Positions 6,801 to 42,763 of a stretch of DNA of 45,633 nucleotides are shown here, one piece after another. The stretch is from a virus, in the IMG/VR virus record IMGVR_UViG_3300012920_000073, positions 1 to 45,633 of that record; one strand, 5' to 3'. A model generated the notes under the pieces. It was not told where the DNA came from. It saw only the letters and a list, made by a program, of their open reading frames with translations, and searched no databases. Numbering within the stretch: the stretch's first letter is position 1; each line of letters begins with the position of its first letter. The position numbers and the translations under genes were made by a program.

Positions 6801-9800
6801 GATCAGATTGTATTCTCTGCTCCTCCACTAGGACCAGGTAATAAACTTACTGGTGATGGTGGAGAAGTAACTCCCTATAAAGGTGTTACTTTCTATGGTA
6901 AAGTATTCCAGTTTAAGGATGATCAATACAATACCAAACATCTAAGAAAAATTAGAAATATTTTCCAACGTGGTGGCACTTGGATTGATGCTGCAAATCA
7001 GATTGAAAGAAATGTAGAGTTTATCGTAAATGAAACTATTGGATATGCTAAACAAACATATTCCACATTAGATTGGAGTACAAAGCAAGATGATTACGAG
7101 AGAAATATTCGTGCAATTTTAGATGCTTATCAACATGATATTAGATTTGGTGGAAATGTAAAAACAGTTGACTATACTTCTATTTTCAATTCTAGTAGTG
7201 ACTATTTGTATATTCAAAATAATAAAACTCAGTCTAATGCAATTTTTGCTTATGCTACTAGATTAGCAAGATTAGCAATTCGTAATTGGGACTACACTGA
7301 TAATGGTGTATCTTACTTTGCTGGTGGAAATAAAATGATAGTAACCAGCACAGAAAATATTGCTGTTGGTATGTTTGTCAGCTCTGGTAGATCATTCCCA
7401 CCAGGAACAAAAATTGTATCTATTGATAGTGCAACTGAAGTTACCTTAAGTAGTAGTGCATTAGCAAACTCTGCTGGTGGTGGTGGCGCTCCAACTGGAA
7501 CCACTTTCTTAAGTGGCACAGCAACCACAGGACCAATTGCTACTAGCACAGGTGCTATTGTTCCTGGAAGCGATTATAACTTACCACCTGGCACTATTGT
7601 TACTATTCCTACATCATTCTCTGGTAGTGACTTAGCAACATTCTCTTGGAGTGGAATTAACAACGGTACATTCTATGATGCAGGTAATTTAATTACATTA
7701 AACAGATCTTATATTATTTCAGAGTCATTGACATGGGCACAAGCACAGTATCCTGGATTGAATTGGGGATCTTATGCTACAAAGTGTGGTAGAGACATTG
7801 GATTGATTCTTGATGCATATGTTTATCACCTTAAATTTGGTGGTAACGAAAAGATTGTAGAAGCAGCACAACTTTATTACAGAAAGAATGATTATCCATA
7901 TGGTGAAGAACTTTATTACATCTCGGGACAACTTACAGAAACAGTTGCAACATTCTTATATGCAAAGGATCTAATGATTCAGGCAATGAGAAATCAATTG
8001 CCAAATGCAGACTATAATGTTTCTATAGATTCTGTATCTCCAGAATGTGCAGAAGTTGAGAGTGCTTTGAATACCTATCATAGCATTATTGAAACTATTC
8101 TAACAGAAGGCAGAGGACTTGTAGAAAAGACACCACAAAATCCAAATAAAGCAGGTAATTGGACTCCTACATTAACATATTCTAATTACAATATTTTAGG
8201 TGATCCTCTACTTCCTAATCAAGAATGTAATAATGTTATCTCCGCTATTGATTCTTTGTATGATAATTTAAGTGATGTATTGGTAGAGCAATCAGTTACT
8301 AGAACTCTCCCAGATTATATTGATGGAGAAAGTAAAGAGTTTGAATTATATTGGGATGACAATACAGTTGTTAATACAGAAGAAGATGAAGATCTATTTT
8401 TAACAATTAATGCTGTAATTCAAAGACCTAAGTTTACAGAAGGTTATCCTTTAGAGGACTCTTATGTTATTGATAGAACTGTAATTCCTAATGTACTAAA
8501 ATTTGATGTTGCTCCTATTTGGGATCAAGATCTTGGAGCTAAGACTATTGGAGAACCAACAGCAGTAGAAAAAGTTGCTGGTATTGGTGTTGGTAACTAC
8601 AAGAGACTTACCATTGATTACAATCTAGTTGATGGTGTCAGAAATGGTCCTTTCTTAATCCTAGATGTAGAAGACTACACTGTACAAAATATTGAACAGG
8701 AAGACTGCTTATATGTTTTCCTAGATGGAGTTTTACAACGTAAAGGATTCTCTTATACTATATCTGGTCCGAACATTACATTTAATGTTTCAATCAAGAA
8801 AGAGATGAAGATTGACATCCGCTATCTCTATGGAAGAAACGTCGGACAAGTTCTTAATGTCTATGATTACTCTCCTGATAGTTACTTTGCACAAAGTAGA
8901 TTATCTTTTGATTCTCCTCTTTTAAATGACTTCTTAAGATATGCTTGGATGGGCGATGCAATCGGACTTCCAATTCACGTTTGGCAACAAAGAGCAAATG
9001 GAACATACAATGTTATTGGTCAAATTAGTAATCCAGTAGTAACTGGAAATAATGCAGTATTTGATGTTTTAGGTCAAAACGCTACTATTGAAAGTGGACT
9101 AGATTTTACTTTTGTACCAAAGGGATACTATGATAGACAATATGTAATTGCAGATGCTGATATTTCTAATGTATCTTTAACATATAATATAGATGATGTT
9201 GGAAGAAAACTTCTTAAAACTGATGATGCTATCTGGTCTGGAAGTAACTATGGAGTAACATATAAGAAACCATTTGTATCTTTATCAAATGGAGATCAAA
9301 TTCGTGTAGAAGGTGAAGATAAATTCCGCAGCATTAAGAGACTACCAACAGTAGCTACTAGTAAAGATGGTAGACCAGGAGAGCAATTAACCGATGATAT
9401 TTTTGGAACGGTCTCAGTTGAGTCTTATACTGGAATTACTAGAGGAGAAGGTCTTTCTGTAATTGCTACTATTGAAAATGGTAGTATTATAAAACTGACT
9501 TGGAATCAACGTAGTTATGACCCTATTACACAACCGACCGCATATCAGTATTATACACCACCAGTTCTTAAATTTGTACCTGAAAATGGTCAAGGTGGTG
9601 GTGCGCGAGCAAATGTTTTAGTAAGTAAAGGTCAAGTAATTAGTGTTGATATTATTGATGGTGGTTCTGGATATACAGAAGCTCCAAAAGTTATTGTAAC
9701 AAGAAGATTTGATATTCTTTCTGAAAGAGACATTGGTATATCAAAGATCAATATTCTCTATAGACCTTATATTAACATTGCTCAAAGTGGAACAGTTATA

Positions 9801-11253: not shown

Positions 11254-13068
11254 ATGGCTGCAATTATTTCTGATAAGTTTCGTATTTTTAACGCGAAACA
11301 ATTCCTAGAATCTCTAACTGAGGGAGCGACTGACACGAGTCAGGAACGTTCTAGAATGTATTTCTTTGTGGGTCGCCCACAGCCCTGGAGAGCGTACTTA
11401 GAAGTCTATTCTAAGAATTCTACTGCATTTACTGTGGGAGACGAAGTGTATATTGGAACGTATGGATCCACCGCTTTCCGCGCCACAATCGCTGCAGTTT
11501 ATGATAGTGCCCTCCTTTTGACCGACGTTTTTGGCAGTGCTGGCGTTAACTCTGCTCCTCCTCTTGGTTCTGACCTAAAAGGTAGAACAGGTGGTGCTGG
11601 TGGTTCTGACACAGGTGCTACAGCTAAGTCTGGCGTTTATCGTTATGCAACTGAAGATGTTCCTCCTCTTCCACTTGATAACCAAAGAGAAAAAGTTAGT
11701 CTTTATGACGAATTGATTGCTGCCAAGCGTATTACTGATGCTTTTGCAAGAACAGTCATTCGTCGTTACAACTGGGACTTAGTAGCTAACCCTAAGTTTG
11801 ACATGTGGAAACCAGACTACGCTGCTACTCCAGGTGGCGGTGGTCAAATTGGTAAGCAAACTGCAACAGGTGCAAATACAATTGCAGATGCTAAGTTCTA
11901 TGTAATGAACTCTCAGTATGAAGTATTCAAGTGTCTTTACAACGGAGAAGGTCCTGGTAATAGCACTGGTCAAAACGCAACGGAAGAACCAACTACTGCA
12001 GGTGGTAACTACGCTGCTGGAACTGGTCTTTATACCGAAACTACTGGTGCTGGTTACATTTGGAAGTATATGTACACCATCCCTACTGATGATGTTCTGA
12101 AGTTCCTTTCTTCTGACTTCATGCCAATCGTTCTTCCTGCTAACAACTCTAGGACTGGTGTTGTAGCACAAGCTGTTGCAGGTGCATGTGACGTTGCTCT
12201 AATTGAAGACGCTGGATCTGGACTTCCTGCCTCTCAAACTCTTTATACTAGCATCAAAGGTGATGGAACAGGTGGTGTTGTAGAACTAGTAACAAATGGT
12301 GCTGGCACAATTACATCTGCAAGTATTCAAGCTCGTGGATCGGGTTACACCTATGCTAATGTTCTTTTAGGCAATGGAAACCTCTTCTCTGACACTGGTC
12401 TAAGCAGTGCAGTCGCGACAGGTGGTTCCGCTGTTGGTGCTATTGAGGTTATCCTACCTCCTGAAGGTGGTCATGGTTCTGATCATGAAACAGAACTTAA
12501 TGGTAAGCGCGTGATGACAAACATCCGTCTAACCTATGCAGAAGGTCAAGGTGACTTCCCTGTAGATAACGACTTCCGTCGTATTGGCATCATCGCTGAT
12601 CCATATAACTGGGGAACCACAACATTTGCTACCTCAGATACTCTCTCTGGATTAAGGTCCGTTAAAATTACTGGTGCTACTGCAGACTTCTCTGTTGATG
12701 AGAAAATTACTCAGACTGTAACTGGTGGTACTGCATATGGTACAGTTGTTTCTTGGACACTTGACAGTGGTTCTACTACCGCTGGTGTTCTTAAGTACAT
12801 CCAAACTAATGATGCACACACTGATCAGGGTGTTGTAAGAGCATTTGAGTCTAATGGTTCTAATGCCATTACAGGAGAATCCTCAACTGCCTCTGGTTCT
12901 GTAGACACAGGTTATAATTCCGCACTACTAGGTGTCACTTTTGCAAGTGGTCTAGCAGCACCTGAAATTGAAAACAACACTGGTGACGTTATTTACGTTG
13001 AGAATCGTCGTCTAATCACTCGCGCTCCTGACCAGATTGAAGATATCAAACTAGTTATTGAATTCTGA
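11254..13068 (+). CDS. 8: Baseplate wedge protein gp8
   Basis: The protein (604 aa) keeps the landmarks of T4 gp8 (334 aa). An N-terminal SDKFRIF segment is followed by FFVGRPQPW (T4 has FGRSEPW), YIWKYMYTIP lies at about 268-277 (T4 YVWEYLFEIP), and the C-terminus is IYVENR...DQIEDIKLVIEF (T4 IYMENR...DQTEEINILF). gp8 is the homodimeric part of the wedge that binds gp7 and gp10. The extra 270 residues include two insertions: a Gly/Thr-rich stretch at about 75-130, and a middle segment at about 310-560 with a GSGYTYANV repeat and a TGGTAYGTV module shared with neighbouring proteins. The ATG at 11254 begins MAAIIS; no strong ribosome binding site is seen. The gene has its own late promoter upstream and a terminator downstream. 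Confidence 0.93.
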   Translation: MAAIISDKFRIFNAKQFLESLTEGATDTSQERSRMYFFVGRPQPWRAYLEVYSKNSTAFTVGDEVYIGTYGSTAFRATIAAVYDSALLLTDVFGSAGVNSAPPLGSDLKGRTGGAGGSDTGATAKSGVYRYATEDVPPLPLDNQREKVSLYDELIAAKRITDAFARTVIRRYNWDLVANPKFDMWKPDYAATPGGGGQIGKQTATGANTIADAKFYVMNSQYEVFKCLYNGEGPGNSTGQNATEEPTTAGGNYAAGTGLYTETTGAGYIWKYMYTIPTDDVLKFLSSDFMPIVLPANNSRTGVVAQAVAGACDVALIEDAGSGLPASQTLYTSIKGDGTGGVVELVTNGAGTITSASIQARGSGYTYANVLLGNGNLFSDTGLSSAVATGGSAVGAIEVILPPEGGHGSDHETELNGKRVMTNIRLTYAEGQGDFPVDNDFRRIGIIADPYNWGTTTFATSDTLSGLRSVKITGATADFSVDEKITQTVTGGTAYGTVVSWTLDSGSTTAGVLKYIQTNDAHTDQGVVRAFESNGSNAITGESSTASGSVDTGYNSALLGVTFASGLAAPEIENNTGDVIYVENRRLITRAPDQIEDIKLVIEF

Positions 13069-13165: not shown

Positions 13166-16100
13166 ATGCCTCAGAAGACTAACCTAAATGTAAATCCTTA
13201 TTATGAGGACTTTGACGCGAGTAAGAATTTTTACAAAATTCTATTCCGTCCTGGATACTCTATTCAAAGTAGGGAGCTAACACAGGTACAATCCATTCTC
13301 CAAAATCAAATTGAGAGTTTTGGAAAGTACGCATTCAAGCAGGGTGAACTTGTCATTCCTGGCGAGGTAGGTCTTAATACAAAATTAGACTACGTTAAGT
13401 TGTCTTCAGTTTCTGAGGTTGCTATCTCAGAAGGAAATGACATCGTATACAAAAAATACGATATTAGTCAGTTGGTAGGACAACAACTACAAGGTCTTAC
13501 CTCTGGTGTTACTGCAACTATTCTAGCAACAAAATTAGCAACAGAGACTGCTGCTGATACTTTATTTGTTAGTTACATTAATAGTGGCAACTCTAATACA
13601 GAACCAACTTTCCGTCAAGGTGAAACTCTAGAAGTTGTTGATGGTGTCAATACACCACTTCTAGTTGTTGGTACAGATGGAAGTGTTCTTCCTACTAGTA
13701 TTGAGATCACTAACCCTGACACAGGAGAAGTTACTTCTCTAGAGAGTCCTGCAATGGGATTTGGATCTGCTGTAAAAGTAGAGGAAGGAATTTACTTTGT
13801 CAATGGGTATTTTGTTCGCAATGACGAAGCACTTCTAGTTATTGATGAATATTATAACAAACCATCTGCAAAAGTAGGATTTACAATTAAAGAAGAAGTT
13901 GTAACACCAGAAGCAGATGCATCTCTATATGACAATTCTATTGGATCTGCAAACTATACAGCTCCTGGAGCACATAGACTCAAAATTTCCCTAGAGTTAA
14001 AAGAGTTTGCTCTAAATGCAATTACTGATAAGAATTTTATTCAACTCCTAACAGTTTCTAGAGGAGTTATTCAAAGAAAAATTGAATCTACTGATTTCAG
14101 TGTTCTTGAGCAAACTTTAGCTCGTAGAACATTTGATGAATCTGGTGATTATGTTGTAGACAATTTCTCTGTTGATATCAGAGAATATGCACAAAAAGAC
14201 GGCAACAGAGGTATCTACGGCATTGATGAGTTTGGTCTCTATAATGGAGAATCTGCCAGTGATGCTGCCAGAAAAATGATCGCTAGCATCGGTCCTGGTA
14301 AAGCATATATCAAAGGATACGAGATTGTCAATAAAGAAACTAAGTATCTTGAAATTAATAAAGCAAGAGAAAGTCTTTCAACTGATAATGTAAATCTTAA
14401 GAGCAAAGGTCTTCCAACTTACAGTGTTACTAATGTATTTGGTAGTGTTCCTTTAAACAAAGAAGGATCAGAACTAACAGCATATCCTGATGTATTTCTA
14501 TATTCTACATTTAATGATGGATCTATTGGTCTGAATGATACAGAACTTTCTACAGATCATAGACAGACTATTGACAGAAGAGGAAAGATTTTTAATACTG
14601 ATGATGGAATTAAAACCATCACTCTACAAATTACAAATACTGTTACATTAATTGGAGCAGTATCAGATGCAACGTTCCAAACTCAATTTGGCGAATTGTT
14701 TTTTGTAAAAACTAGAAGTGATTTGGGTACTCCAACAGCTGTTAGTTCTTTTAAAACATTATCGTTTGCAACATCAAATAAACCACTAATTAATTCTTCA
14801 GAATCAGTTCAGTTTTTAGAACTAACAGTATTTGGTAATAAGAGTGATTTAGAATTATTACTATTGGAGTATGATCTTTCTGATAGTGAATTTAAGAGAA
14901 AAATTTATCTATCGGAAGCTGATGCTTCTGCAAATAATAATGAGTTTGGTTTTATTGTAGATTATTCTGATATTATCACGCCTGTTATTGGAAAAACAAA
15001 ACCAAGTAATTTCTTTTTACAACAGAAAGGACCTGGATTTAATTCAGATTCTGATATTATTCTATCTAAAGGTCGTTTAGAAGCAGGAACCACTGCATAC
15101 AATACTACATTTGGATACTCTTATTTTGATCCTCAATTCTTCACCAAAATTCAATTAGAAAATGTTCCAGCTGGTGCTAATGCATTTGATGAAGGTAAGT
15201 ATGTATTTGGTATTGATAGCAATGCATATGGTGTTGTAGAAGGATCTTCTGCTGGTGTTTACAGTACAGGAAGAATTTTATTCGTAAAAACTCTATCTGG
15301 TAAGTTCCAATCTGGTGAAACAATTAGAGATGAAGATGGCAATACTGTAAAAATTGCAAAAGACAATACAATCTCTCACTTTGTAGTTCAAAATAGAGGT
15401 TTGGGATATGCTGATGGTTGTTCTTTATTAATTAATGGTCTTGAATTTGATGCATCAAAAATTGATCTAGGTAAAAATATTGCAGGCAATATTTACAATG
15501 CTACTATTATTAATAGAAGAGCAGTAAATATTGAATATGCACAACCACCTGCGGTAACTGTCAAAAATCCAGATGGAGCAGCCTCTCCTAGTTCTGCAGC
15601 TTCTGTTGTACCAATTCTATTCAGAAATACTGTTACAACTTATACACCACAGAATGTCAAGTCTATTGGTTGTTTTTATGGTTCTGGTAACTCCAACTCT
15701 TTCTCTGCAGATGTAGTTGTAGATAGTCAAACTTTCTCTGAAATTAAAGCAGTTACTAACTTTACATTCTTCGGATCTCAAGGATCTAATTTTGTGGAGT
15801 CTACTAGTTTTAGTGCTGATGCATCTGTCCTATTGCAGCAAGGAGATCTTGTACAATTCTCTGATGATAACAATAATTTAGTTCGTGCTATTGTACAATA
15901 TGCAACAAAACAAGAAGGATCATCTAAATCTAGAATTTACTTAGATACAGTTTTACCTGGTGGTGTTACAAATACAAGTATTGTACGTTTACGTCCTAAA
16001 GTAGCAAATACTAATTCTGGAACATTGTTGTTCCCAACAGGAAGTAAGCAAGTTTCTAAAATTTCTGCTGGTGGAGATGATACTAAGATTAAGTATTACT

Positions 16101-19100
16101 TCCGTAGAGATTTTGTAACTACTGCTTCTTCTGGTGGTGGTGTAATTACATTCGCTGCACAGTTACCATTTGGCACACAAAGATTTGCAGCTTTCAGTGA
16201 AAGTAATTTCATCATGACTGTATTAGATCCTGGCGATGCTCCTAATATTTCCGAAGGAGATATTATTTACGTTGGAGAGGACTCGGTTGAGATTACTTCT
16301 GCTACTGATACTGCTAGTGGTCTTACTTCTGGTAGTATTAGTCTACAGTTACCATCAACGTATTTTGGAACTATTCCTTCTAATGGTGCATTCCCTAAAC
16401 TAAAACTTACAGCAACTCTTGAAGTATCTAATGCAAAACCAAGACTTAAGACTGCAGTAAAAAATAAGAGAATCGTTGTTGCTTCTGCTGGAGATCGTGT
16501 TGTTCCATTTAGAGGACAAGACTATGATAATGAAGTTGTAGAGACTTTATCATATTCTGATGCTTTTAAATTAAGATATGTCTATGAAGGAACTTCATCT
16601 CAAGCACCAGATGTAGATTCTGCTGGTAATCTAATTTCAGGAACTGACATTACTTCCAGATATACATTTGATAATGGACAGAGAGATACATTATATGATG
16701 TTTCTAGAATTGTTCTAAAACCAGGATTTGATCCTGCAGTTGGACAATTGCTTATTGCATTTGATTACTTTGAACAATCCCAAGGAGACTTCTGTACAAT
16801 TGATAGTTATCTACACGAAGCAGGTGTTCCAGAAGATGAAATTCCATCTTTCAACTCTTCTGTTCATGGAAACTTAGAACTTAAGAACGTAATTGATTTT
16901 AGACCCAAAGTAGATAGCAGTGCTATCATTCCTGGTTTCCTTAATATTGCGTCTCTTGAGACTACTGCTGGATCATTCTCTGGTTCTGGTGCTGTACTAG
17001 CAAGTACACCAGCTCCTGACTTGAATTTGGAATACACTTTCTCATTCAGTCAAGTACAATACTTAGATCGTATTGATGGTGTTTTCTTAGATAAAAAGGG
17101 ACAGTTTATTGTTAAAGAAGGTAACTCTTCCTTAAACCCAACTAAACCAGATCCAATTGATGATGCTGTACCTCTTTTCTATGCATATATTCCTGCATTT
17201 ACGAAGACAACTAAAGATGTAAGAATTACTCCAGTTGATAACCGTCGTTATACAATGCGTGACATCGGTAAATTGGAGAAGCGTATTGAGCGTCTTGAGT
17301 ATTATACTACACTTAGTATTCTTGAGCAGCAAGCTCTTAACATGCAAGTTAAGGATCAAATTGGTTTAGACCGATTTAAGTCTGGTTTCTTTGTTGATAA
17401 TTTTGAAGCACACAAAGTTGGCAACTTGCAATCTCTTGATTACAGATGTGCAGTGGACAGTCAGCAAAGTGTCCTACGTCCTCAATCAAAAGAAGATTCT
17501 GTAAATCTAGAAGAAGTAAATGTAAGAGAAGATCAAAGATCTGTTTCTGGTTACAAGAGATCTGGAGATATGGTAACATTACCTTTCTCTCCTTTGAACT
17601 TACTAGGAAATGATTTTGCATCTAAGACTTTAAATCCAAATCCATTTGTTGTTCTTCAATATGTTGGTGATGGAGAGATTTCTCCATCTATTGATCATTG
17701 GTATGATCAAAATGAAGAACCACTAGTTGTAGATACTAACACAGATCTATTCAACATTTTCTTAGCAAAAGAAAATGTAAAAGAAAGTTTCTCTAGTCTA
17801 TTCAATTCTTTTGTAGTTAACTGGGTTGGAACATCCTCTTCTTTCACCACAATTAATTCTTTGGGTGAAAACAATACACAGCAAGCTACAACATCTGTTT
17901 CTCAAGCATCAGTTGCAAGTTCTTCTAATATCAGTCCTCAAAACAATGAGGTAGGCAAAGGAGTTCCAACTAAGAGTATTGGCGAAAGTTTAGTCTCAAC
18001 TTCCCTAGCATTCTTTGCCAGAAGCATTCCTGTCAGATATGTTATTAGAAGAATGAAACCTAATACGAAGATGTATGTCTTCTTAGAGGGAAGAAATATT
18101 GGTCGTTGGGTAAATCCAGACCTAAGATTTACAGGTATTGCTGGCAACTCTCTATCTGCATTCAATGGTGAGATTACAACTGATGAGTATGGTAATGCTA
18201 GCGGACTAATTGTTGTTCCTGCTGGTTTACCTCCACTTGAAAATGCAACTTGGACTGGTGATGTAGATACTCTACCATATGATACCTCTGCTGAAGAAGT
18301 ATCAATTACTTCTGGTGTACTAACCTTTAGATTTACTTCTAGTGCAACTAATGCTCCTAAAGGAGAAGTAGATAGTTATACTGAAGTTAAGTATTATGCT
18401 ACTGGTCTCCTTCCAGAGAATCCTGCAAGCATTGTATCTACTAAACCTTCTTACTTCAAATCTAATGAAGGTGTACAGTTAATTGAAAGCAATACTGATA
18501 ATCCTATCAGACCTAATCCTCTTGCACAAACATTTAAGGTTGAAAACCTAGAGGGTGGTTGTTTTGTTACTGGTGTTGATATGTTCTTCAGCAAGAAGAG
18601 CACTAATATTCCAGTCAAAGCATATATTTCTAATGTTGATGCAGAAAAACCAGCTAAAAATATTGTTCCTGGTTCTGAGAAGACACTCTCTCCAAATACT
18701 TTCCTTAAGTGTTTTGCTAGTGGTAATATTGCAGTTTTCAAAGGCGAGAGTGTAACAGGTGCTTCTTCTGCTGCTTCTGGTCCTATTCTTAAGATCTTTG
18801 ATAAGAACAATGTAGAGTTAGTATCTACTGCATCTGGTAAGTATAGTCTTACTAATGAGCAAGTTTATACTATAGTTCTAAGTAATCACAATGGTAAATC
18901 TTTTGTACAGAATGAAGATCTAATTATTCCTTCTGTTACTGAAGCAAATGCAAAAGATGCTACTGATCTTGTTCTTGCTATTGCAAAAGATAGCGGTAAA
19001 GTCTCTAGAATGAGAATTGCCAACCCTGGTCAAAATTATGATAGCGCAATTTTAACTATTGAGAGTCCACAACTTCCTGGTGGTGCTACTGCAACAGCTA

Positions 19101-21262
19101 GTATTGAAGTATCAGGTGGTAAAATTTATAATGCTGAGGTATCATTGAGTGGTTTTGGTTACACAGAAGCACCTTCTGTGGTCGTCAAAGGCGTCGGAAA
19201 TGGTGCTGGTGGGTGTGAGATCCAAACGTTTATTGAGATTGATTCTCCTGCCGTTAGAATGGGTGTCGCGATTGATGCAGGTGAAGTAACAAATTCTACA
19301 ACACCAACACACTTTGCATTTGATTATCCTGTTTATCTACAAAACGATACCGAATATGCATTAGTAGTAGAAACTGATTCTACTGATTATGAACTTTGGG
19401 TTTCTAGACTTGGTGAAACAGACATTGCTACAAGCACAGTCATTACAACACAACCATCTCTAGGTTCAGTGTATCGTTCTCAGAATACAGAAAGTTGGAC
19501 TGAAGATATCTTTGAAGATCTTAAGTTTACACTATACAGAGCAGAGTTTGATCTAACAAGACCTGCAGAACTTCTCCTTAAGAATACAAATCTTGGATAT
19601 GAACTTCTTGATGCAAATCCAATTGAAACAAACGCAAGTTCTAATTCTGCTTCCACTTCTACTTTATTCAAGAATAGCAACGCTGTTATTAAAGTAAATC
19701 ATAGAGATCATGGTTTTGAAGATAGTGGTAACTCTTATGTGTTCTATAGAACTGCTCTAGAAACAGGTGGTATCACTGCCTCCACTATTAATAGTAACTT
19801 GTTCCAAGTTCTTAACTCTGGTGTTGATACTTATAACTTTGTTTCTCCATCTCAAGCTGCAGGAAACTCTATTGGTGGCGGAACTTCTGTATACGCAAGT
19901 CATAACAGAAAATTTGAAACATTATATCCACAAATCCATTATCTAACATTTACTGGAACAACTTTAGATGTTTCTGTAAAAACTACCAATGTGGTTCCTA
20001 TTGATTCTTCTACAACTAACTATACTTCATATTCACAGGCAGATTATGAAAGAACTTTCTTGAATGAACCACATTATTTTACAAATCAAAAGTTGATTGC
20101 ATCTGAAATTAATGAAACTTTGAATGGTCTTGAAAGATCTCTGACTTACAAGATGCAACTATCTTCTACTTCTAGTAATCTATCTCCAATCATTGATTTG
20201 TCTAGCGCATCAGTCAAAACTGTTAGCAATAGAATTGAAAATGCTACTGGACAAGAAAGAAGATTTGGTAGAAGAGATCAGGTTATTGAATTTTATCCTG
20301 TATATCAATTTGATCTTGCTGGTAATGCTGGAACTGAATTACAACCTAATCAGACAATTGAAGGTCAAACTTCTAAAACAACTGGAACTATTGCAAGAGT
20401 CAATGGTAGTGTTGTTTATGTAAGAGTCAAGACAAGTCAATTTTTCCAAAAAGGAGAACTTGTTTCTTTAGGAAACCAAACACAATTGACAAATGTTAGT
20501 GTTGATTCTAATCCAACACAAGTATTTGCATCTATTGATGATGGTTCTACTATTGTAGCACGTAATCCATCTGTTATTCTTGAGACTTATGATAATGTTA
20601 TTACTGGTAAAACAGTTATTTGGAATAGTCAAACTCAAGAATTGACTGCTAGGGTTGATATTAAACCTATCAATGATAACTTTACTGATAGAATTATTGA
20701 CAATGCAGTTTACAATAGAAATGCCGTTGTTGGTGATCAACTTGCAGATATTTTCCGCGTAGGAGACTTCATTAAGTATCCAAACCAACCAGATGAAGAA
20801 GCAAATTATCTGGAGGTAGGAAAAATTACATATACAAATGGTATTGATTTTGTTGCAGAAAATACTTCTAAGAATGGTTCTGCTATTGCTAAGTATGTAA
20901 CCAAAGAAGTTGTTCTCAATAATCCAGCGACTGCAATTGATGTTCATCTAACTGCAAATGTCAAGGATATTTCAAATATCCAAGTTCTCTATAAGTTTAA
21001 AAAAGCATCTAGTCAAGAGAACTTTGATGACATTGATTGGGTATTGTTTAATGGTAATGGACAACCAGATACATTAGAATTAGCAACTACAGAAAATACT
21101 ATTTCTAGTGTTGTTGAGAAGCAATCTTCGTATCAAGATCTCAAGTATAGTGTATCTGATATTGATGAATATTCTTCGTTTGCTATTAAGATTGTGATGT
21201 TGGGTGTTGATCCAGCGTTTGCTCCTAAAATTCAAGATATTAGAGCAGTAGCAGCATTCTAA
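13166..21262 (+). CDS. DUF4815-type virion structural protein (2698 aa)
   Basis: The N-terminus has the DUF4815 signature: NPYYEDFD (10-17), ILFRPGYSIQSRELTQVQ (about 24-41), then NQIESFGKYAFKQGELVIPG. A second family landmark is a short coiled coil, IGKLEKRIERLEYYTTLSIL (about 1368-1387), followed by GLDRFKSGFFVDNF (about 1400). DUF4815 proteins are found in marine T4-like phages next to the baseplate genes; the biochemical role is not known, but tail or fibre attachment is likely from position and size. GxGY repeats occur at about 745 and 1950-2020, and several F-xx-GE-x-I modules are scattered through the protein. The start is supported by GGAG at 13158-13161. Gene order (after gp8, where T4 has gp9 and gp10) hints at a functional replacement of gp9/gp10, but I see no sequence match to either. 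Confidence 0.85.
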   Translation: MPQKTNLNVNPYYEDFDASKNFYKILFRPGYSIQSRELTQVQSILQNQIESFGKYAFKQGELVIPGEVGLNTKLDYVKLSSVSEVAISEGNDIVYKKYDISQLVGQQLQGLTSGVTATILATKLATETAADTLFVSYINSGNSNTEPTFRQGETLEVVDGVNTPLLVVGTDGSVLPTSIEITNPDTGEVTSLESPAMGFGSAVKVEEGIYFVNGYFVRNDEALLVIDEYYNKPSAKVGFTIKEEVVTPEADASLYDNSIGSANYTAPGAHRLKISLELKEFALNAITDKNFIQLLTVSRGVIQRKIESTDFSVLEQTLARRTFDESGDYVVDNFSVDIREYAQKDGNRGIYGIDEFGLYNGESASDAARKMIASIGPGKAYIKGYEIVNKETKYLEINKARESLSTDNVNLKSKGLPTYSVTNVFGSVPLNKEGSELTAYPDVFLYSTFNDGSIGLNDTELSTDHRQTIDRRGKIFNTDDGIKTITLQITNTVTLIGAVSDATFQTQFGELFFVKTRSDLGTPTAVSSFKTLSFATSNKPLINSSESVQFLELTVFGNKSDLELLLLEYDLSDSEFKRKIYLSEADASANNNEFGFIVDYSDIITPVIGKTKPSNFFLQQKGPGFNSDSDIILSKGRLEAGTTAYNTTFGYSYFDPQFFTKIQLENVPAGANAFDEGKYVFGIDSNAYGVVEGSSAGVYSTGRILFVKTLSGKFQSGETIRDEDGNTVKIAKDNTISHFVVQNRGLGYADGCSLLINGLEFDASKIDLGKNIAGNIYNATIINRRAVNIEYAQPPAVTVKNPDGAASPSSAASVVPILFRNTVTTYTPQNVKSIGCFYGSGNSNSFSADVVVDSQTFSEIKAVTNFTFFGSQGSNFVESTSFSADASVLLQQGDLVQFSDDNNNLVRAIVQYATKQEGSSKSRIYLDTVLPGGVTNTSIVRLRPKVANTNSGTLLFPTGSKQVSKISAGGDDTKIKYYFRRDFVTTASSGGGVITFAAQLPFGTQRFAAFSESNFIMTVLDPGDAPNISEGDIIYVGEDSVEITSATDTASGLTSGSISLQLPSTYFGTIPSNGAFPKLKLTATLEVSNAKPRLKTAVKNKRIVVASAGDRVVPFRGQDYDNEVVETLSYSDAFKLRYVYEGTSSQAPDVDSAGNLISGTDITSRYTFDNGQRDTLYDVSRIVLKPGFDPAVGQLLIAFDYFEQSQGDFCTIDSYLHEAGVPEDEIPSFNSSVHGNLELKNVIDFRPKVDSSAIIPGFLNIASLETTAGSFSGSGAVLASTPAPDLNLEYTFSFSQVQYLDRIDGVFLDKKGQFIVKEGNSSLNPTKPDPIDDAVPLFYAYIPAFTKTTKDVRITPVDNRRYTMRDIGKLEKRIERLEYYTTLSILEQQALNMQVKDQIGLDRFKSGFFVDNFEAHKVGNLQSLDYRCAVDSQQSVLRPQSKEDSVNLEEVNVREDQRSVSGYKRSGDMVTLPFSPLNLLGNDFASKTLNPNPFVVLQYVGDGEISPSIDHWYDQNEEPLVVDTNTDLFNIFLAKENVKESFSSLFNSFVVNWVGTSSSFTTINSLGENNTQQATTSVSQASVASSSNISPQNNEVGKGVPTKSIGESLVSTSLAFFARSIPVRYVIRRMKPNTKMYVFLEGRNIGRWVNPDLRFTGIAGNSLSAFNGEITTDEYGNASGLIVVPAGLPPLENATWTGDVDTLPYDTSAEEVSITSGVLTFRFTSSATNAPKGEVDSYTEVKYYATGLLPENPASIVSTKPSYFKSNEGVQLIESNTDNPIRPNPLAQTFKVENLEGGCFVTGVDMFFSKKSTNIPVKAYISNVDAEKPAKNIVPGSEKTLSPNTFLKCFASGNIAVFKGESVTGASSAASGPILKIFDKNNVELVSTASGKYSLTNEQVYTIVLSNHNGKSFVQNEDLIIPSVTEANAKDATDLVLAIAKDSGKVSRMRIANPGQNYDSAILTIESPQLPGGATATASIEVSGGKIYNAEVSLSGFGYTEAPSVVVKGVGNGAGGCEIQTFIEIDSPAVRMGVAIDAGEVTNSTTPTHFAFDYPVYLQNDTEYALVVETDSTDYELWVSRLGETDIATSTVITTQPSLGSVYRSQNTESWTEDIFEDLKFTLYRAEFDLTRPAELLLKNTNLGYELLDANPIETNASSNSASTSTLFKNSNAVIKVNHRDHGFEDSGNSYVFYRTALETGGITASTINSNLFQVLNSGVDTYNFVSPSQAAGNSIGGGTSVYASHNRKFETLYPQIHYLTFTGTTLDVSVKTTNVVPIDSSTTNYTSYSQADYERTFLNEPHYFTNQKLIASEINETLNGLERSLTYKMQLSSTSSNLSPIIDLSSASVKTVSNRIENATGQERRFGRRDQVIEFYPVYQFDLAGNAGTELQPNQTIEGQTSKTTGTIARVNGSVVYVRVKTSQFFQKGELVSLGNQTQLTNVSVDSNPTQVFASIDDGSTIVARNPSVILETYDNVITGKTVIWNSQTQELTARVDIKPINDNFTDRIIDNAVYNRNAVVGDQLADIFRVGDFIKYPNQPDEEANYLEVGKITYTNGIDFVAENTSKNGSAIAKYVTKEVVLNNPATAIDVHLTANVKDISNIQVLYKFKKASSQENFDDIDWVLFNGNGQPDTLELATTENTISSVVEKQSSYQDLKYSVSDIDEYSSFAIKIVMLGVDPAFAPKIQDIRAVAAF

Positions 21263-21271
21263 TTTCCGCGT

Positions 21272-21478
21272 ATGGACTATATCAAAGTTGAAGGGCATGA
21301 TGGTCTCGTAAGAGACCAAAACACTGGTGCCATCATCAATCTGGACGATTCTGCAATCACTGCAAGACGTAAATCAAAACAGTTGAGTTCCGCATTGGAA
21401 GACATAAATACATTGAAGAATGAAGTCTCTGAACTCAAGTCCCTACTAAGAGAGTTAATCAAAAATGCCAGCAATTAA
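21272..21478 (+). CDS. Small conserved coiled-coil phage protein (68 aa)
   Basis: The protein begins MDYIKVEGHDGLVRDQNTGA and ends in a heptad-like stretch (about 41-66, ALEDINTLKNEVSELKSLL). The V-x-GH-x-x-LVRD-x-x-T-x-AI form is familiar from small proteins of marine T4-like phages, where it is usually annotated as hypothetical or virion-associated. The gene lies 9 bases after the DUF4815 gene and overlaps the next gene by 14 bases, which suggests coupled translation. It may be a short structural partner or assembly factor for its large neighbours; no function is established. Confidence 0.8.
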   Translation: MDYIKVEGHDGLVRDQNTGAIINLDDSAITARRKSKQLSSALEDINTLKNEVSELKSLLRELIKNASN

Positions 21479-24400
21479 TGTAGCAAGAAGCGATACCTTT
21501 GAACAGCAGAGGTTGAAAATTAATGAAATTGGTGCCAATCTTTTCCAGATTAGTTCTGGTGGGACAGATTTGTCTACTGGTAATCTTAGATTAGGAGATG
21601 GATCAAAAAATTCTCCGTCACTAGCGTTTACTTCCGATAATAGTCTTGGTATTTTTAAATCTGGTATCGGTACATTTGGATTTGTTTCTTCTAGCAAAAA
21701 AATCTTTGATGCATCATTATCAAACATTGTATCATTTAAAGACTTTATTGTAAGAAAACAGTCTTTGAATCAAGGTGGTTTAAGTATCACTAATAATGGT
21801 AGTGGATATGACGGTGGTCAATATGCTGATATTCCTCTAATTGGTGGTAGTGGTGATAGTGCAACTGTAACTGTTGATGTTGCAGGATTCCAAGGCACTG
21901 TACTTAATACAGGACTCAACTATGTTCCTGGAAACTATGCAAGTATTTTTCTAGTTGGTGGTACTGGCACTGGAGCTCAAGCAACGTTTACCATTGATAA
22001 TCTAGATGGTGACATTACAAATGCTGGTAGTGCATATGTTCCTGGTACTTTTACTGATGTACCATTACAGGGAGGTAGTGGTTCTGGAGCAAAAGCAACA
22101 TTAAATATTACTGGTACTTCAACAATTTCTGGTAATATTACAAATGGTGGTAGTGGTGGAACAGATAATTCATATCCATTTGTACAATTACACAACTCAC
22201 CTGCACAGACATTTGTTGTCACAGCTGTTGCAAACCCAAATGCTGGACAAGCAGGAGAACCAAATTTCATTTATGCAATTGATGGTGTTTCACAACCAAC
22301 ACTAAACATTGTCCCAGGAAACACATATCTATTTGATATGTCGGACCCTTCTCTACTGGGTTCTAACCCAGGAGATCCTACAAGTGAGCATAGAATTGCT
22401 TTCCAAGCAGCAGATGGTAGCGCATTAAATTCTCAGATCTATACATTTTACACGAGAGGAAATGCTGGTCAACCAGGTTCTTTCTCTGATCTAGTTATCA
22501 AACCAGAAGCACCTGTTGGTGTTCAAATTAGATATGATTGTGCTAACCACCCAAACATGGGTCCTGCTGGTGGCAACATCAACGTTAATGCAGGTGCTCA
22601 AGGAAACTTTGGTAGTGGTGCGTATGCAAACTTGACAATCTCTGGTGGTGCTATCACTTCACTAAGTTTTGTTGATGAAGGTACAGGATATAGAGCGGGA
22701 GATACACTTTACGTTAAATCATCTGATGTCGGTAGCAACACTGGATTTTTATATACTATCAACAGTGTAGTATTTACAGGTACAGTAAACACTGTTGATA
22801 TTACGGTAGAAGGTAGTGGATATAATTTAAATGATGTACTTACTATCAATGATAGTGATGTTGGCGGTGGTGGTGGTAGTGGATTCCAGTTTACTGTAAA
22901 TACAGATCCTGGTCGTGTATCTGATCTAACATTTGATTCTTATGGTACAGGATATGTTGCTACCGATTTACTAGAGCTACCAAAAGCAGTTGCCAATATT
23001 TCAACTTATGCTCCTGGTCAAACAGCAACACAAGCATCTACTGCAACTGCTGGAGATGCTGTTTTAATTATTGCAGATACTTCTAATTTAGAAGTTGGAA
23101 TGTATTGCTTCACTAGTGGAGGTGATGTAGGTACTCTTGAAAACACTGCGGTAATTCAAAGTATTGATAGCGCAACACAAATTACGATGAACACTGGAGC
23201 AACAGGTTCTGGTGCTATCAATGTATACTTTGTATCCCAAGATCTCAATAACATTACTGTTGCAAGTACAGCAGGAATTGCGATTGGAGATACTATTGAA
23301 AAAGTTTCTGGTACTGGTGTACTTGCAGACAACACAACTGTTGGTGACGTTCTCAACTCTACAACAATTCAATTATCTGCACAACCAACATCTCCTGGTC
23401 CTATTGTAGTAAACTTTGTTCCACCTTTTGGCGATCCAACTACAGATTTCCAATATCGTGTTGATACACTAGGTGTTGTTGAAAGTGTAACTCTTGCTGA
23501 TGGTGGAAATGGTTATGCAGTAGATGATATTCTTTCCATTCAGGCAGAACTTTTAACTCAACCAAATATCTTTACAGTTCTTTCCAAAGCTGTACAAGAG
23601 ATTACATTTACGCAAACTATTGCGGATTCAGTTTTAGGAATTGGAGATTCAATTAAAGTTAGAGACGGTGCTGTAAGTAATGTTAGCACAGTAAATGCTC
23701 CAACTATTACGCCTACAATCACTGGACCTCTTTCTGGTACTATTACCTCAGGCAATACTACTATTACTGGTCTCTCTAGTACAACAGGAATTAGTGTTGG
23801 CGATTTTGTTCAGGAAGTATCTACTAGTGGAAATATTGATCCTCTAGCAAAAATTGCGTCTATTACAAATAGCACAACTGTTGTAATGGATCTACCTGCT
23901 TTAGCAAGTAACACTGTTGATTTAAACTTTACCAGTGATGAAGCAGGAACTTATACAGGAGTAGCAACTACTGGCGGAACTGGTACTGGACTAACGTTAG
24001 ATATTGAAAGAAGTAGTCAGGGTGATATTCTCACAATTCAAGTAAATAATCCTGGTGGAGAATATACACAAAGTGATCCTATCACTGTTGCTGGTACTTT
24101 AATTGGTGGTAGTTCTCCAACACATGACCTCTCGTTAACTGCAGACTCTGTAAGTTCTACGGATGATTTAGAAATTGTTGAAAGAATTACTGCTGGTGGT
24201 AATATTTCTAGTGTTACTGTATTGACTGGTGGTGCAACTGTTGCAGATGGCGACAGCATGATCAAAGTTGGAGTAACATCTACAGTTTACACCGTAGACG
24301 TTGCTGGAACATCAGATTCAAGATTCTATATTGATCTTGGAGATGGTAACGGATCTCAAAAGACTCCAGATATTACGATGTATGTTGGATCTACATACAG

Positions 24401-26846
24401 ATTTGATCTATCTGATGCATCCAATAGTGCTCACCAGTTCTCATTAAGTACATTCCCAGATGGTATTAATCCACCAAGTCTCGTAGAAAATATTTCTTCT
24501 ACCCTTGATGTAAACTCTAAAATTATTACAGTTGCAGATACAACAGGAATTGTTGTTGGCATGGTTGTAACTTCTACAGCAGGAGTTGGGCAGGTTGCGT
24601 CAAATACTTTAGTTGAGTCTATTGATAGTTTAACACAAATTACATTATCGGAACTACCAGATGCTAGTGGTGCAGTTACACTAGAATTTGTTGGTACTGA
24701 ATATACAGATGGTGTTACTAAAGATCAAGGCGTTTTAGATATCTTAGTTACATCAAATACACCAAGTCTTTATTACTATTGTGGTATTGGTGGTGAAGGA
24801 CATACAAATGAAGGTGGACCAGATGGTGATGAAGCTGTAATCACTATAGATCCAAATAATCCTAAGACATTTGGATCTGGATTTGAAATTAGAGTTTCTG
24901 ATATTACATCAACAGATCAAGCAACATTCAAGGTTTCCGATGGAGAAGTTGCTGCTCAAGTTTTCAATGCAACTTCAGCAAGTATTACTTCTATCACTGC
25001 TACTTCACTAACCTTAAGTACAATTCTTGCTTCAAGCAGTATTCAAGTACCACAAGTTATATCACAGTCTGGACTGACACTACAAGGCACTAATATTAAC
25101 TTAAATAGTGATACTACATGTGGTCCTCTTAGTATTACAAACTCAACTGGTGCTTTATCAACATCAGGTGAAATCAAGACATTTGGTCAACTCAATATTA
25201 ATGATACTCTGTTCATTAATAACAATACTGTTACATCACAAGCAAATACTTCCATTGTATTAGAACCAGCGGTAAACCAAGTTGTAACTATTGATGCAAC
25301 AACAGCAATTGCTGTTCCTGTTGGTGATACTGCACAAAGACCACTCACTGCTGTTAGTGGTCAAATTAGATTCAATACAGATTCTAATCAATACGAAGGT
25401 TATAGTTCTACTGCTAGTGCATGGTCTTCTCTTGGTGGTGTCCGAGATCTAGATGGAAACACATATATCTTAGCAGAACAAACTATTGGTGCTAATGATA
25501 ACACCCTTTGGTTTATCAATGACAATATTAATACTGTTAAGTTTACTCCAACTAGATTAGAATTTAGATCCAACAAATATATTTCTTCTAGTAATACTGG
25601 CGCACCAGCATATCTTGACTGGACTGCTAATGCGCCAGTTTCTGTTGGTGATTATTTAAAATACAAAAATAATCTTTATGAGGTAACAACTGCAGGTACT
25701 ACGGGTACATCTGGTAGTGAACCATCGCATACTACTGGATCACAACCTAATGGTAGTGCAGTTCTAGAATTTTGGGGTCTTGGCGTTGCACCTCTAACTT
25801 TTGAAGATATTGAAGAAATTAGAATTGGACCTACACAAGACACTCCTGTTAGTATCAACCAAGATTTAAGACTTGCAAACAATAAAATTTCTACCGATGT
25901 TTCAGATTTGGTTCTACAACCAAATGCTGGACAAAAAATTGTATGTGATTCTGACTCTACTCTTGTTATTCCAGTTGGTACAGATTTAACAAGAGGAGCA
26001 CCACAAGCTGGTTCTATTAGATTCAATACAACCTCTAGTCAGTTTGAAGGTTACGATGATAACAATAACTGGGGATCTCTTGGTGGTGTTAAAGACGTTG
26101 ATCAGAACACTTATATTATTCCAGAAACTACTCCTGGTGCTAATGAGAATATTTTATACTTCTACAATGATGGAACTAATACCGTACAGTTGACTGCAAC
26201 TGCTATGGATTTCTTCTCTGTAGATACTATCAGATCTCAGACAAGTAATGAGTTTGAAATTACTGCAAACTTGATGACATTCAATGGTGCAGAAACAACA
26301 CTTGATAATACTGATACAAGCAAAACATTCTTACATACAAGTAAACAATACTTTGATCTTGGTCTCTCTGCAGGTGTTACTGTTGACCCTGTATTAAGAC
26401 TTGACGATCAAGGTGATGTATATTTTAATACTGGTTTTGGAACAGGTACATTTACTGGAGTTAAAGTTTTTGATGGTGATCTAAAAGAATTTGAACTAGC
26501 TGACGTTAGAATTTTGACAGAAAAAGTTACTTTAACAAAAGGAACTGTAAATAATGGAGGTTCTAATATTTACGATGTTGGAACAAATAATGGAGCGAAA
26601 ACAGTTGTTGTCGCAGAAGATAGTGTAACTGGTGCTAGAGAATTTTTTGAGTTTGGAATCATAGATAATAACACAGATGTTTTCCATACCGAGTATGGAA
26701 ATATCAGAACAGGTGATCAACTTATTGATGTTTCTTTTGAAGTTACTGGAACTAATTTTGTCAGATTAAATTTCACAATCGGAAGCACAGTTCCAAATGG
26801 TAATAATGTGGTCGTAACTATCGTATCTAACGTCACTAAGGGATAA
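21465..26846 (+). CDS. Fibre-like virion protein with cupredoxin-like domains (1793 aa)
   Basis: The N-terminus (PAINVARSDTFEQQRLKINE) is a common start of marine phage tail proteins. Residues about 105-235 hold three tandem GxGY/GGTGTGA beta repeats. Residues about 245-380 form a cupredoxin-like domain with His309, Cys359, His362 and Met365 (CANHPNM). A second, interrupted copy (about 945-1130) has His990, Cys1106 and His1113 but no Met. Four beta modules of the form V-x-SI-x-S-x-T-x-I sit at about 525-650, 755-825 and 1005-1078. Two copies of an IRFNT...YEGY...W-x-SLGGV unit (about 1283-1360, 1500-1575) form the C-terminal part. It is probably a fibre or baseplate-attached protein. The ATG lies inside the preceding gene. 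Whether the cupredoxin-like fold binds copper is not shown. Confidence 0.8.
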   Translation: MPAINVARSDTFEQQRLKINEIGANLFQISSGGTDLSTGNLRLGDGSKNSPSLAFTSDNSLGIFKSGIGTFGFVSSSKKIFDASLSNIVSFKDFIVRKQSLNQGGLSITNNGSGYDGGQYADIPLIGGSGDSATVTVDVAGFQGTVLNTGLNYVPGNYASIFLVGGTGTGAQATFTIDNLDGDITNAGSAYVPGTFTDVPLQGGSGSGAKATLNITGTSTISGNITNGGSGGTDNSYPFVQLHNSPAQTFVVTAVANPNAGQAGEPNFIYAIDGVSQPTLNIVPGNTYLFDMSDPSLLGSNPGDPTSEHRIAFQAADGSALNSQIYTFYTRGNAGQPGSFSDLVIKPEAPVGVQIRYDCANHPNMGPAGGNINVNAGAQGNFGSGAYANLTISGGAITSLSFVDEGTGYRAGDTLYVKSSDVGSNTGFLYTINSVVFTGTVNTVDITVEGSGYNLNDVLTINDSDVGGGGGSGFQFTVNTDPGRVSDLTFDSYGTGYVATDLLELPKAVANISTYAPGQTATQASTATAGDAVLIIADTSNLEVGMYCFTSGGDVGTLENTAVIQSIDSATQITMNTGATGSGAINVYFVSQDLNNITVASTAGIAIGDTIEKVSGTGVLADNTTVGDVLNSTTIQLSAQPTSPGPIVVNFVPPFGDPTTDFQYRVDTLGVVESVTLADGGNGYAVDDILSIQAELLTQPNIFTVLSKAVQEITFTQTIADSVLGIGDSIKVRDGAVSNVSTVNAPTITPTITGPLSGTITSGNTTITGLSSTTGISVGDFVQEVSTSGNIDPLAKIASITNSTTVVMDLPALASNTVDLNFTSDEAGTYTGVATTGGTGTGLTLDIERSSQGDILTIQVNNPGGEYTQSDPITVAGTLIGGSSPTHDLSLTADSVSSTDDLEIVERITAGGNISSVTVLTGGATVADGDSMIKVGVTSTVYTVDVAGTSDSRFYIDLGDGNGSQKTPDITMYVGSTYRFDLSDASNSAHQFSLSTFPDGINPPSLVENISSTLDVNSKIITVADTTGIVVGMVVTSTAGVGQVASNTLVESIDSLTQITLSELPDASGAVTLEFVGTEYTDGVTKDQGVLDILVTSNTPSLYYYCGIGGEGHTNEGGPDGDEAVITIDPNNPKTFGSGFEIRVSDITSTDQATFKVSDGEVAAQVFNATSASITSITATSLTLSTILASSSIQVPQVISQSGLTLQGTNINLNSDTTCGPLSITNSTGALSTSGEIKTFGQLNINDTLFINNNTVTSQANTSIVLEPAVNQVVTIDATTAIAVPVGDTAQRPLTAVSGQIRFNTDSNQYEGYSSTASAWSSLGGVRDLDGNTYILAEQTIGANDNTLWFINDNINTVKFTPTRLEFRSNKYISSSNTGAPAYLDWTANAPVSVGDYLKYKNNLYEVTTAGTTGTSGSEPSHTTGSQPNGSAVLEFWGLGVAPLTFEDIEEIRIGPTQDTPVSINQDLRLANNKISTDVSDLVLQPNAGQKIVCDSDSTLVIPVGTDLTRGAPQAGSIRFNTTSSQFEGYDDNNNWGSLGGVKDVDQNTYIIPETTPGANENILYFYNDGTNTVQLTATAMDFFSVDTIRSQTSNEFEITANLMTFNGAETTLDNTDTSKTFLHTSKQYFDLGLSAGVTVDPVLRLDDQGDVYFNTGFGTGTFTGVKVFDGDLKEFELADVRILTEKVTLTKGTVNNGGSNIYDVGTNNGAKTVVVAEDSVTGAREFFEFGIIDNNTDVFHTEYGNIRTGDQLIDVSFEVTGTNFVRLNFTIGSTVPNGNNVVVTIVSNVTKG
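21765..22165 (+). repeat. Three tandem GxGY/GGTGTGA beta repeats
   Basis: Three units follow one another: NNGSGYDGG...LIGGSGDSATVTV, NTGLNYVPG...LVGGTGTGAQATFTI, and NAGSAYVPG...LQGGSGSGAKATL. Each is about 42-45 residues. The order suggests local duplication of a short beta unit. Confidence 0.8.
22197..22605 (+). other. Cupredoxin-like domain 1 (complete type-1 Cu ligand set)
   Basis: The segment has P-GNTYLFDMSDPS, an E-H-R-I-AF strand (His309), and ends VQIRYDCANHPNMGPAGG with Cys359, His362 and Met365. The His...Cys-x2-His-x2-Met arrangement matches the ligand order of blue copper proteins, with shorter Cys-Met spacing than plastocyanin. Confidence 0.6.
24275..24855 (+). other. Cupredoxin-like domain 2, interrupted by an inserted beta module
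   Basis: The first part (V-GSTYRFDLSDASNSAHQFSL, His990) and the last part (LDILVTSNTPSLYYYCGIGG, Cys1106, His1113) belong to one cupredoxin-like unit. About 70 residues between them (24485-24694) are a V-ESIDSLTQITLS module found elsewhere in the same gene. The Met ligand is missing. Confidence 0.6.
25313..26195 (+). repeat. Two IRFNT-type fibre repeats
   Basis: Two copies (25313-25540 and 25969-26195) share VPVG or IPVG, then IRFNT, Y- or FEGY, W-x-SLGGV-x-D-x-D-x-NTYI, and GAN-(D/E)-N. They flank a segment with an unrelated collar-like sequence. Related G-x-I-x-F-N...W units are at the N-termini of the LamG and fibrinogen-like adhesins. Confidence 0.7.
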
Positions 26847-42113: not shown

Positions 42114-42763
42114 TGGAACTATTTGATATTTTTCCCAATGCGGTATGTAGAGAAATGTATGAAGATCATGTATCTCTCAAAAAAATTGTTATTCCAATGA
42201 TAGATGACAAACCATTAGAAACCAATGGCATGTCAGAAAAACTCTTTCATTTAGATAATCAAAGAGGAAAATCTTTTTTGCATAGGAATGGTTTAGAACC
42301 ATTTAAAGAATGGTTAGAAGAACAGTGCTCAAAATTTGTTAGATCTCTTGGATATGTCTTAGAAGAAAAAATGGTAGTAACCGATAGTTGGTTAAATATA
42401 TGCAACAAAGGTGGAAGTCAATATCCTCACTTTCACACCAATTCATACATATCAGGAACGTACTACTTAAATTTTAAAAATGGTCATGCGCCATTGATGT
42501 TTAGACATAGTGATAATTCAACACATTCATCACGTCCAGCTATTATATTAGAACAAGACACATCAAATCCAGGAAAATATAATTCTGATGTATTGGTTTA
42601 TCCAAATGAAGGTGAACTTCTTCTTTGGCAATCAAATCTCAGTCATGGATATCAAAAAAATGAGTTAGATTATAGAATTAGTATATCTATGAATTTTATG
42701 CCATCGCTTGTGGGAAACGATAAATACTCTTACAGAGTAATATCATCCCAAAGAACGGAGTAA
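42113..42763 (+). CDS. 2-oxoglutarate/Fe(II)-dependent oxygenase
   Basis: The protein (216 aa) matches the 2OG-FeII_Oxy_5 layout: SWLNICNKGGSQYPHFHTNS (about 93-111) with His106 and His108 as candidate metal ligands, then an SGTYYLNF strand, PNEGELLLWQSNLSHGY with distal His178, and YRISISMNF with Arg188 for 2-oxoglutarate. Members hydroxylate proteins or small molecules and are frequent in marine T4-like phages. The true start is ATG 42113, which overlaps the preceding stop (TAATG); an upstream in-frame extension to 42074 has no support. The substrate is not known. Its place between fibre-related genes suggests a fibre or host-surface target, an inference. Confidence 0.82.
   Translation: MELFDIFPNAVCREMYEDHVSLKKIVIPMIDDKPLETNGMSEKLFHLDNQRGKSFLHRNGLEPFKEWLEEQCSKFVRSLGYVLEEKMVVTDSWLNICNKGGSQYPHFHTNSYISGTYYLNFKNGHAPLMFRHSDNSTHSSRPAIILEQDTSNPGKYNSDVLVYPNEGELLLWQSNLSHGYQKNELDYRISISMNFMPSLVGNDKYSYRVISSQRTE
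42719..42726 (+). promoter_or_regulatory. Possible late promoter inside the oxygenase 3' end
   Basis: GATAAATACT, with the same downstream CT as the strong box at 13124 (TATAAATACT), lies 46 bases before the fibrinogen-like adhesin ATG. It encodes N-D-K-Y in the oxygenase, so chance is possible. Confidence 0.4.

Follow-up and report, generated by a model that had tools for sequence, protein, structure and literature searches.

Can the tail of a marine phage hold copper? The question is raised by one open reading frame (ORF) in a linear IMG/VR virus record of 45,633 bases, IMGVR_UViG_3300012920_000073. This whole stretch of DNA is referred to below as the window. A preliminary description placed a cupredoxin-like domain with a full set of type-1 copper ligands in a 1793-aa tail protein encoded there. 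The reading preferred here, at a probability of about 72%, is that this domain (D1) forms a type-1 copper site which the virion carries in its adsorption apparatus, where it would have a stabilising or host-contact role.

Tail genes of the window and the four putative ligand residues

The gene set of the window is that of the tail region of a T4-like marine cyanomyovirus. In a DNA-level search of phage records, none was close to the window. The nearest annotated relatives of the D1 region are Kyanoviridae phages of Synechococcus, in which the gene order is identical. The main features are as follows.

11254-13068, + strand: T4 gp8-like baseplate wedge (PF09215, 8.1e-11; phrog_438, 2.9e-175)
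13166-21262, + strand: 2698-aa ORF with DUF4815, at the position of the gp7-type baseplate protein (PF16075, 4.7e-45; phrog_358; neighbours in relatives)
21465-26846, + strand: 1793-aa virion structural protein carrying D1 (phrog_6005, E=0; gene order)
22197-22604, + strand: D1, cupredoxin-like domain, residues 245-380 of the 1793-aa ORF (model, fold searches, conservation)
22389-22391, + strand: His309, putative first ligand (residue 70 of the model; H in 22/22 orthologues)
22539-22541, + strand: Cys359, putative thiolate ligand (residue 120 of the model; C in 22/22 orthologues)
22548-22550, + strand: His362, putative second His ligand (H in 22/22 orthologues)
22557-22559, + strand: Met365, putative axial ligand (M in 194/194 full copies)

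The match of the 1793-aa ORF to phrog_6005, a virion structural protein family, is strong (1868 bits, best stretch 826-1792). The ORF comes after the large DUF4815/gp7-type ORF, and the same order is found in all seven cyanomyovirus relatives inspected, where the large upstream gene is annotated as gp7, structural, virulence-associated, or DUF4815. Further tail genes of the window match phrog_5449 (small virion protein) and phrog_5342 (fibre protein, here of 3030 aa). None of the short motifs HxH, CxxH, HxxC, and CxxC occurs in three more large ORFs of the window. An upstream ORF of 3442 aa (867-11195) has a strong match to the YHYH domain (PF14240, 4.3e-30). The stretch inspected shows YAYF where the motif that presumably gave the domain its name is expected, and no literature on a metal link of this domain was found. 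Downstream of the tail genes lies a 2OG-Fe(II) oxygenase-like ORF (42074-42763; phrog_81, 5.9e-35).

His309, Cys359, His362, and Met365 are present in D1, with residues and coordinates exactly as first described, and the reported ligand pattern is confirmed. The 1793-aa protein contains only five Cys and nine His, and four of 20,000 shuffles of it produced a match to H-x(30-70)-C-x(2-4)-H-x(2-4)-M. The order of the ligands and the C-x2-H-x2-M spacing are common to D1 and amicyanin, whose ligands are given as His53, Cys92, His95, and Met98 in PMC12723479. The distance from the first His to Cys is 39 residues in amicyanin and 50 in D1. According to PMC4059628, loop length is considered to shape copper geometry. 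Unlike amicyanin, D1 is a domain within a virion tail protein, and family searches detected no relation between the two.

Predicted fold, cellular relatives, and the likely metal

The AlphaFold2 model of D1, built on a 55-row alignment, is all-beta with nine strands (pLDDT 86, pTM 0.82). His70 of the model lies two residues ahead of strand 72-76, Cys120 closes strand 115-120, and His123 and Met126 precede strand 131-135. The ligands follow the cupredoxin order His, Cys, His, Met, with the Cys-His-Met loop between the last two strands. This placement relative to the strands is that of type-1 sites in known cupredoxins. When the model is compared to PDB by Foldseek, ranks 1-16 are all copper cupredoxins (nitrite reductases, rusticyanins, and multicopper oxidases), with a best E of 6.6e-4 (2dv6) and modest TM-scores on the query of 0.38-0.51. 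Among the 50 Foldseek matches listed, 37 were judged to be copper proteins, including 8zo8_C2, inferred as oxidase subunit II, and 13 were not.

In VIA-align all of the 50 matches listed are copper cupredoxin-fold proteins. The top match (Z 8.3, 106 residues, 3.5 A) covers residues 24-137 of the 2dv6 chain, which are the N-terminal part of a three-domain nitrite reductase. The N-terminal domain of this enzyme type (2dv6 and 6tfd, VIA Z 8.3 and 8.2) is the closest structural match to D1. It is part of an enzyme and has 15-18% identity to D1, while searches of the phage protein revealed no enzyme domain. Such Z-scores barely clear the level at which two structures may simply share an arrangement. 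The cupredoxin-like domain proposed at the outset is borne out by the predicted fold, a beta-sandwich whose top PDB matches are copper cupredoxins; note that the Greek-key type (about 7-9 strands) is here assigned from the nine strands and the PDB ranks rather than from strand order. Viral matches to the model in BFVD include proteins of P-SSM2 and S-TIM5. Uncultured giant viruses of Pithovirus and Marseillevirus type have beta-sandwich proteins that also match D1 structurally, with E down to 4e-7.

Sequence families give a fainter picture. No Pfam or NCBIfam model matched D1 of the window, and none scored above cut-off for any of the 17 D1-type copies in alignment A1. PF00127 (Copper-bind) matched neither the window nor the 17 copies. 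PF25489 (At5g54830-like, cut-off 27 bits) had no match to the window D1 and weak matches in two of the 17 phage copies (best E 0.003). PDB sequence searches with D1 gave insignificant matches only. In the PDB profile search the best match (0.033) is an immunoglobulin-like protein, and multicopper oxidase and pseudoazurin appear at E of about 1. An hhalign comparison with 12 bacterial PF00127 cupredoxins (of 28 loci, those with the matching motif on the + strand) puts His, Cys, and His in register, and the alignment is weak (probability 7.6%, E 0.0046). Its score was attained by one of 200 column shuffles; one column shuffle scored an anomalous 128.7.

The nearest cellular relatives detected come from Gammaproteobacteria, where the phage profile matches 11 of 94 genomes. 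One of the 11 is G001, the assembly from which a phage-like locus was taken (L194, see below). Four loci listed outside G001 encode exported-looking proteins (signal-peptide-like starts were judged by eye) with the same four ligands in 4/4. Three of these proteins (L234-L236) are about 460-520 aa long and the fourth (L237) has 377 aa. L236 scores 29.4 bits against PF25489, above the cut-off of 27 bits, and one of the four proteins has a weak YfdX match. These proteins have the domain and the four ligands as in D1, but they are cellular and have another partner region. From these sequence comparisons, phage D1 and the exported gammaproteobacterial proteins thus form a cupredoxin branch barely covered by current libraries.

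The preliminary description had also likened D1 to plastocyanin. This likeness is not supported: the loop spacing is that of amicyanin, PF00127 does not match, and the nearest cellular relatives detected are exported gammaproteobacterial proteins close to PF25489. An origin from a host plastocyanin gene is not favoured, since PF00127 does not match and the nearest cellular relatives detected are other exported proteins. Cyanophage petE (plastocyanin) auxiliary genes encode free host-type metabolic proteins. The petE product is also a copper protein in cyanophages, whereas D1 is a virion structural domain.

If D1 binds a metal, this metal is likely to be mainly copper. It is unlikely, though conceivable, that zinc, or copper as Cu(I) only, serves instead as a purely structural cross-brace. 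Type-1-like ligand sets accept other metals, and zinc azurin (1azr) is among the PDB matches. Zn, Ni, or non-redox Cu(I) could fit a His-Cys-His-Met set, and a structural brace would suffice for conservation in an exposed fibre. However, the full His-Cys-His-Met set, the amicyanin loop spacing, and the exported cellular relatives favour copper, and Met, an uncommon zinc ligand, seldom binds zinc.

Spread of the domain and conservation of its ligands

The domain recurs widely. A tblastn search with D1 of the window matched 41 of 50,697 phage records, all below 60% identity. In the 16 of these records that were fetched, the four ligands are aligned in every case (16/16), one record having a His-Met loop two residues longer. 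With a better-connected relative (L079) as query, 360 of the 50,697 records were matched at 703 places. These are mostly cyanophages and also include phages of Pelagibacter and Methylophilales, and the matched proteins carry annotations as gp9-type baseplate connectors, tail fibres, or structural proteins. The search for the domain in other phage tail proteins, which the preliminary description had called for, thus finds the domain in proteins of the tail, baseplate, and fibres of marine phages; the module is peculiar neither to this phage nor to cyanophages.

Pattern scans of IMG/VR with three queries gave stretches coding for relatives in 16/23, 486/505, and 223/227 cases. For the latter two queries, the copies compared are the best 80 of 486 and the best 80 of 223. 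His, Cys, His, and Met are invariant in 194 full copies, and all 36 representatives below 70% identity are intact. The 55-row alignment has only seven invariant columns, and the four ligands are among them. Assuming independent columns, the probability that four preset columns fall within 7 of about 125 is 3.6e-6. This conservation is stronger evidence against chance than the shuffles of the 1793-aa protein. Each IMG/VR scan had one search word containing the Cys-His motif. Seeding does not explain the conservation, however, because 129 of the 176 tallied copies (9, 39, and 81 for the three scans) were reached via a word outside this motif, and all are intact.

To look beyond the seeds, 12 additional remote phage records were fetched from the tblastn list. 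The complete ligand set is found in copies from P-SSM4, S-ShM2, S-SCSM1, P-GSP1, and S-B68. The set is lost in copies from Syn33, ACG-2014b, PSS2, S-SZBM1, S-RIM8, and S-WAM1, with the first His retained in those of S-SZBM1 and S-WAM1. In the ACG-2014d copy the first His is missing and the match stops before the Cys region. Over all loci, 216 of the 224 covering copies are H-C-H-M; this count leaves aside 24 partial matches, two with a domain E-value above 1e-3, and the second domain copy of the window described below, and one locus (L033) is cut off at a contig end. The eight copies without the full set retain the Cys in none, the second His in none, the first His in three, and the Met in one. 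Across the 224 copies, the Cys and the second His are always kept or lost together. Such block-wise keeping or losing of ligands is what a metal site would predict. Several tail copies, such as those of PSS2, ACG-2014b, and Syn33, persist without the set, and it therefore appears not to be essential to every tail.

Genome contigs gave another 11 matches, mostly in metagenome or single-cell assemblies. Most of them are probably phage DNA, since several of ten adjacent ORFs match phage tail or virion families. In the Porticoccaceae assembly (L194), an ORF at 5175-5849, shortly downstream of the cupredoxin-domain ORF, has a match (2.3e-28) to phrog_3704, a family of phage ferredoxins.

The 1793-aa protein has its own internal control, a second and degenerate copy of the domain (D2) that the preliminary description does not mention, together with a repeated module.

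24285-24854, + strand: D2, second, degenerate domain copy, residues about 941-1130 (profile match, ligand loss)
24483-24698, + strand: module of about 72 aa within D2, between His990 and Cys1106 (internal comparison)
23067-23234, 23241-23420, and 23781-23930: further copies of the module, residues about 535-590, 593-652, and 773-822 (internal comparison)

D2 of the window has His990, Cys1106, and His1113 and no Met. It is called a copy on its profile match alone (3.5e-8, residues 941-1002); its fold prediction is poor (mean pLDDT 58, pTM 0.45), and the fold search gave no match at E 0.001. The module, which occurs at least four times in the protein at 39-45% identity, is itself predicted well within a D2 model that is poor elsewhere. 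The 22 orthologue rows compared, 17 of them distinct, all have H, C, and H in D1. In D2 of these rows, 14 have the first His, 11 have the Cys and these same 11 also the second His, and none has the Met. The His/Cys/His trio without Met is seen in seven of the 17 distinct orthologues, Cys and the second His always occurring together. The D1 and D2 regions have the same mean pairwise identity (0.50 and 0.51). The loss of ligands from D2 at equal divergence implies that the fold tolerates losing them and that D1 retains them for another reason. We infer that D1 is under selection for metal binding.

This comparison bears on the suggestion that D1 is only a structural beta-sandwich, an Ig-type decoration-like domain whose ligands are inherited relics without metal. 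Many beta-sandwich modules recur in phage tails, the 13 non-copper Foldseek matches among the 50 listed include Ig-like proteins, and ligand-free copies survive in other tail proteins and as D2. But relics should disappear one by one, as fast as the domain around them changes, while D1 retains all its ligands at about 50% mean identity, D2 loses them at the same divergence, and the loss is block-wise. A fold of structural value only, which had been allowed for from the start, is weakened by this keeping of the set as a block in D1 and its loss as a block elsewhere, and we regard it as improbable. A real metal-binding site in D1 is very likely.

A probable copper site on the tail and its possible roles

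The case for D1 as a cupredoxin-like domain with a type-1 ligand set is supported, and phage particles with D1 probably carry copper on their tails, judging by the ligand set and its block-wise conservation. The location in the adsorption apparatus is deduced from the gene neighbourhood and from the copies in gp9-type connectors and fibres. A structural or host-contact role rather than a redox one has about even odds; it is favoured because nothing points to a redox partner and the domain is also present in phages of non-photosynthetic hosts. In the mechanism we propose, D1 would be a genuine cupredoxin domain that has spread as a module through marine phages, in proteins of their tails, baseplates, and fibres. 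Its four side chains would form a type-1 copper site on the adsorption apparatus, adjoining the baseplate. The cytosol, where virions are assembled, is low in free copper, and for this reason the site would probably be loaded outside the cell or at lysis. Copper could then lock the exposed domain in a rigid, long-lived form presented at the host-contact region, and electron transfer would be unnecessary for this.

Instead of such locking, the site could be redox-active, exchanging electrons at the host surface or sensing redox state and so triggering or timing adsorption. Cupredoxins with this ligand set, such as amicyanin, carry electrons (PMC12723479), and phages of photosynthetic hosts are the majority of carriers. 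However, a redox partner or linked redox gene was not found in the window, and phages of Pelagibacter and Methylophilales are also carriers. A redox role is possible but unsupported, and we hold it to be quite unlikely.

By analogy, tail-held copper might be recognised by a copper-uptake or surface protein of the host. An iron Trojan-horse version of this idea, involving the HxH iron-binding tail fibres of T4-like phages, has been proposed as a hypothesis for marine phages (PMC11705849), and the domain lies in baseplate and fibre proteins, gp9-type connectors included. In those fibres a phage tail protein binds a metal, as D1 would in the copper reading. According to the same paper, they have His-only octahedral iron sites, whereas D1 has Cys and Met among its ligands in a beta-sandwich setting, and no two His of the 1793-aa ORF are two residues apart. 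Copper-assisted entry is an outside chance at best: it is drawn by analogy alone, the iron idea is itself hypothetical, and no receptor is known.

Term searches of the open-access literature turned up no paper that describes a cupredoxin as part of a phage virion. If copper is bound by D1, then virus tails have co-opted a classic fold of electron transfer as a structural component, which is present in hundreds of marine phage sequences. The carriers include phages of Prochlorococcus, Synechococcus, Pelagibacter, and Methylophilales. A redox role or one involving a copper-uptake receptor would, if true, be more surprising. It is a bold and rather unlikely extension that marine phage virions commonly bear type-1 copper sites on baseplates and fibres as an unrecognised oceanic copper-binding pool, with copper active in adsorption as a receptor-recognised ligand or a redox-sensitive latch. 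Copper binding by D1 would also allow a direct test of whether phage adsorption needs a trace metal other than iron, and phage particles would join the list of oceanic copper ligands.
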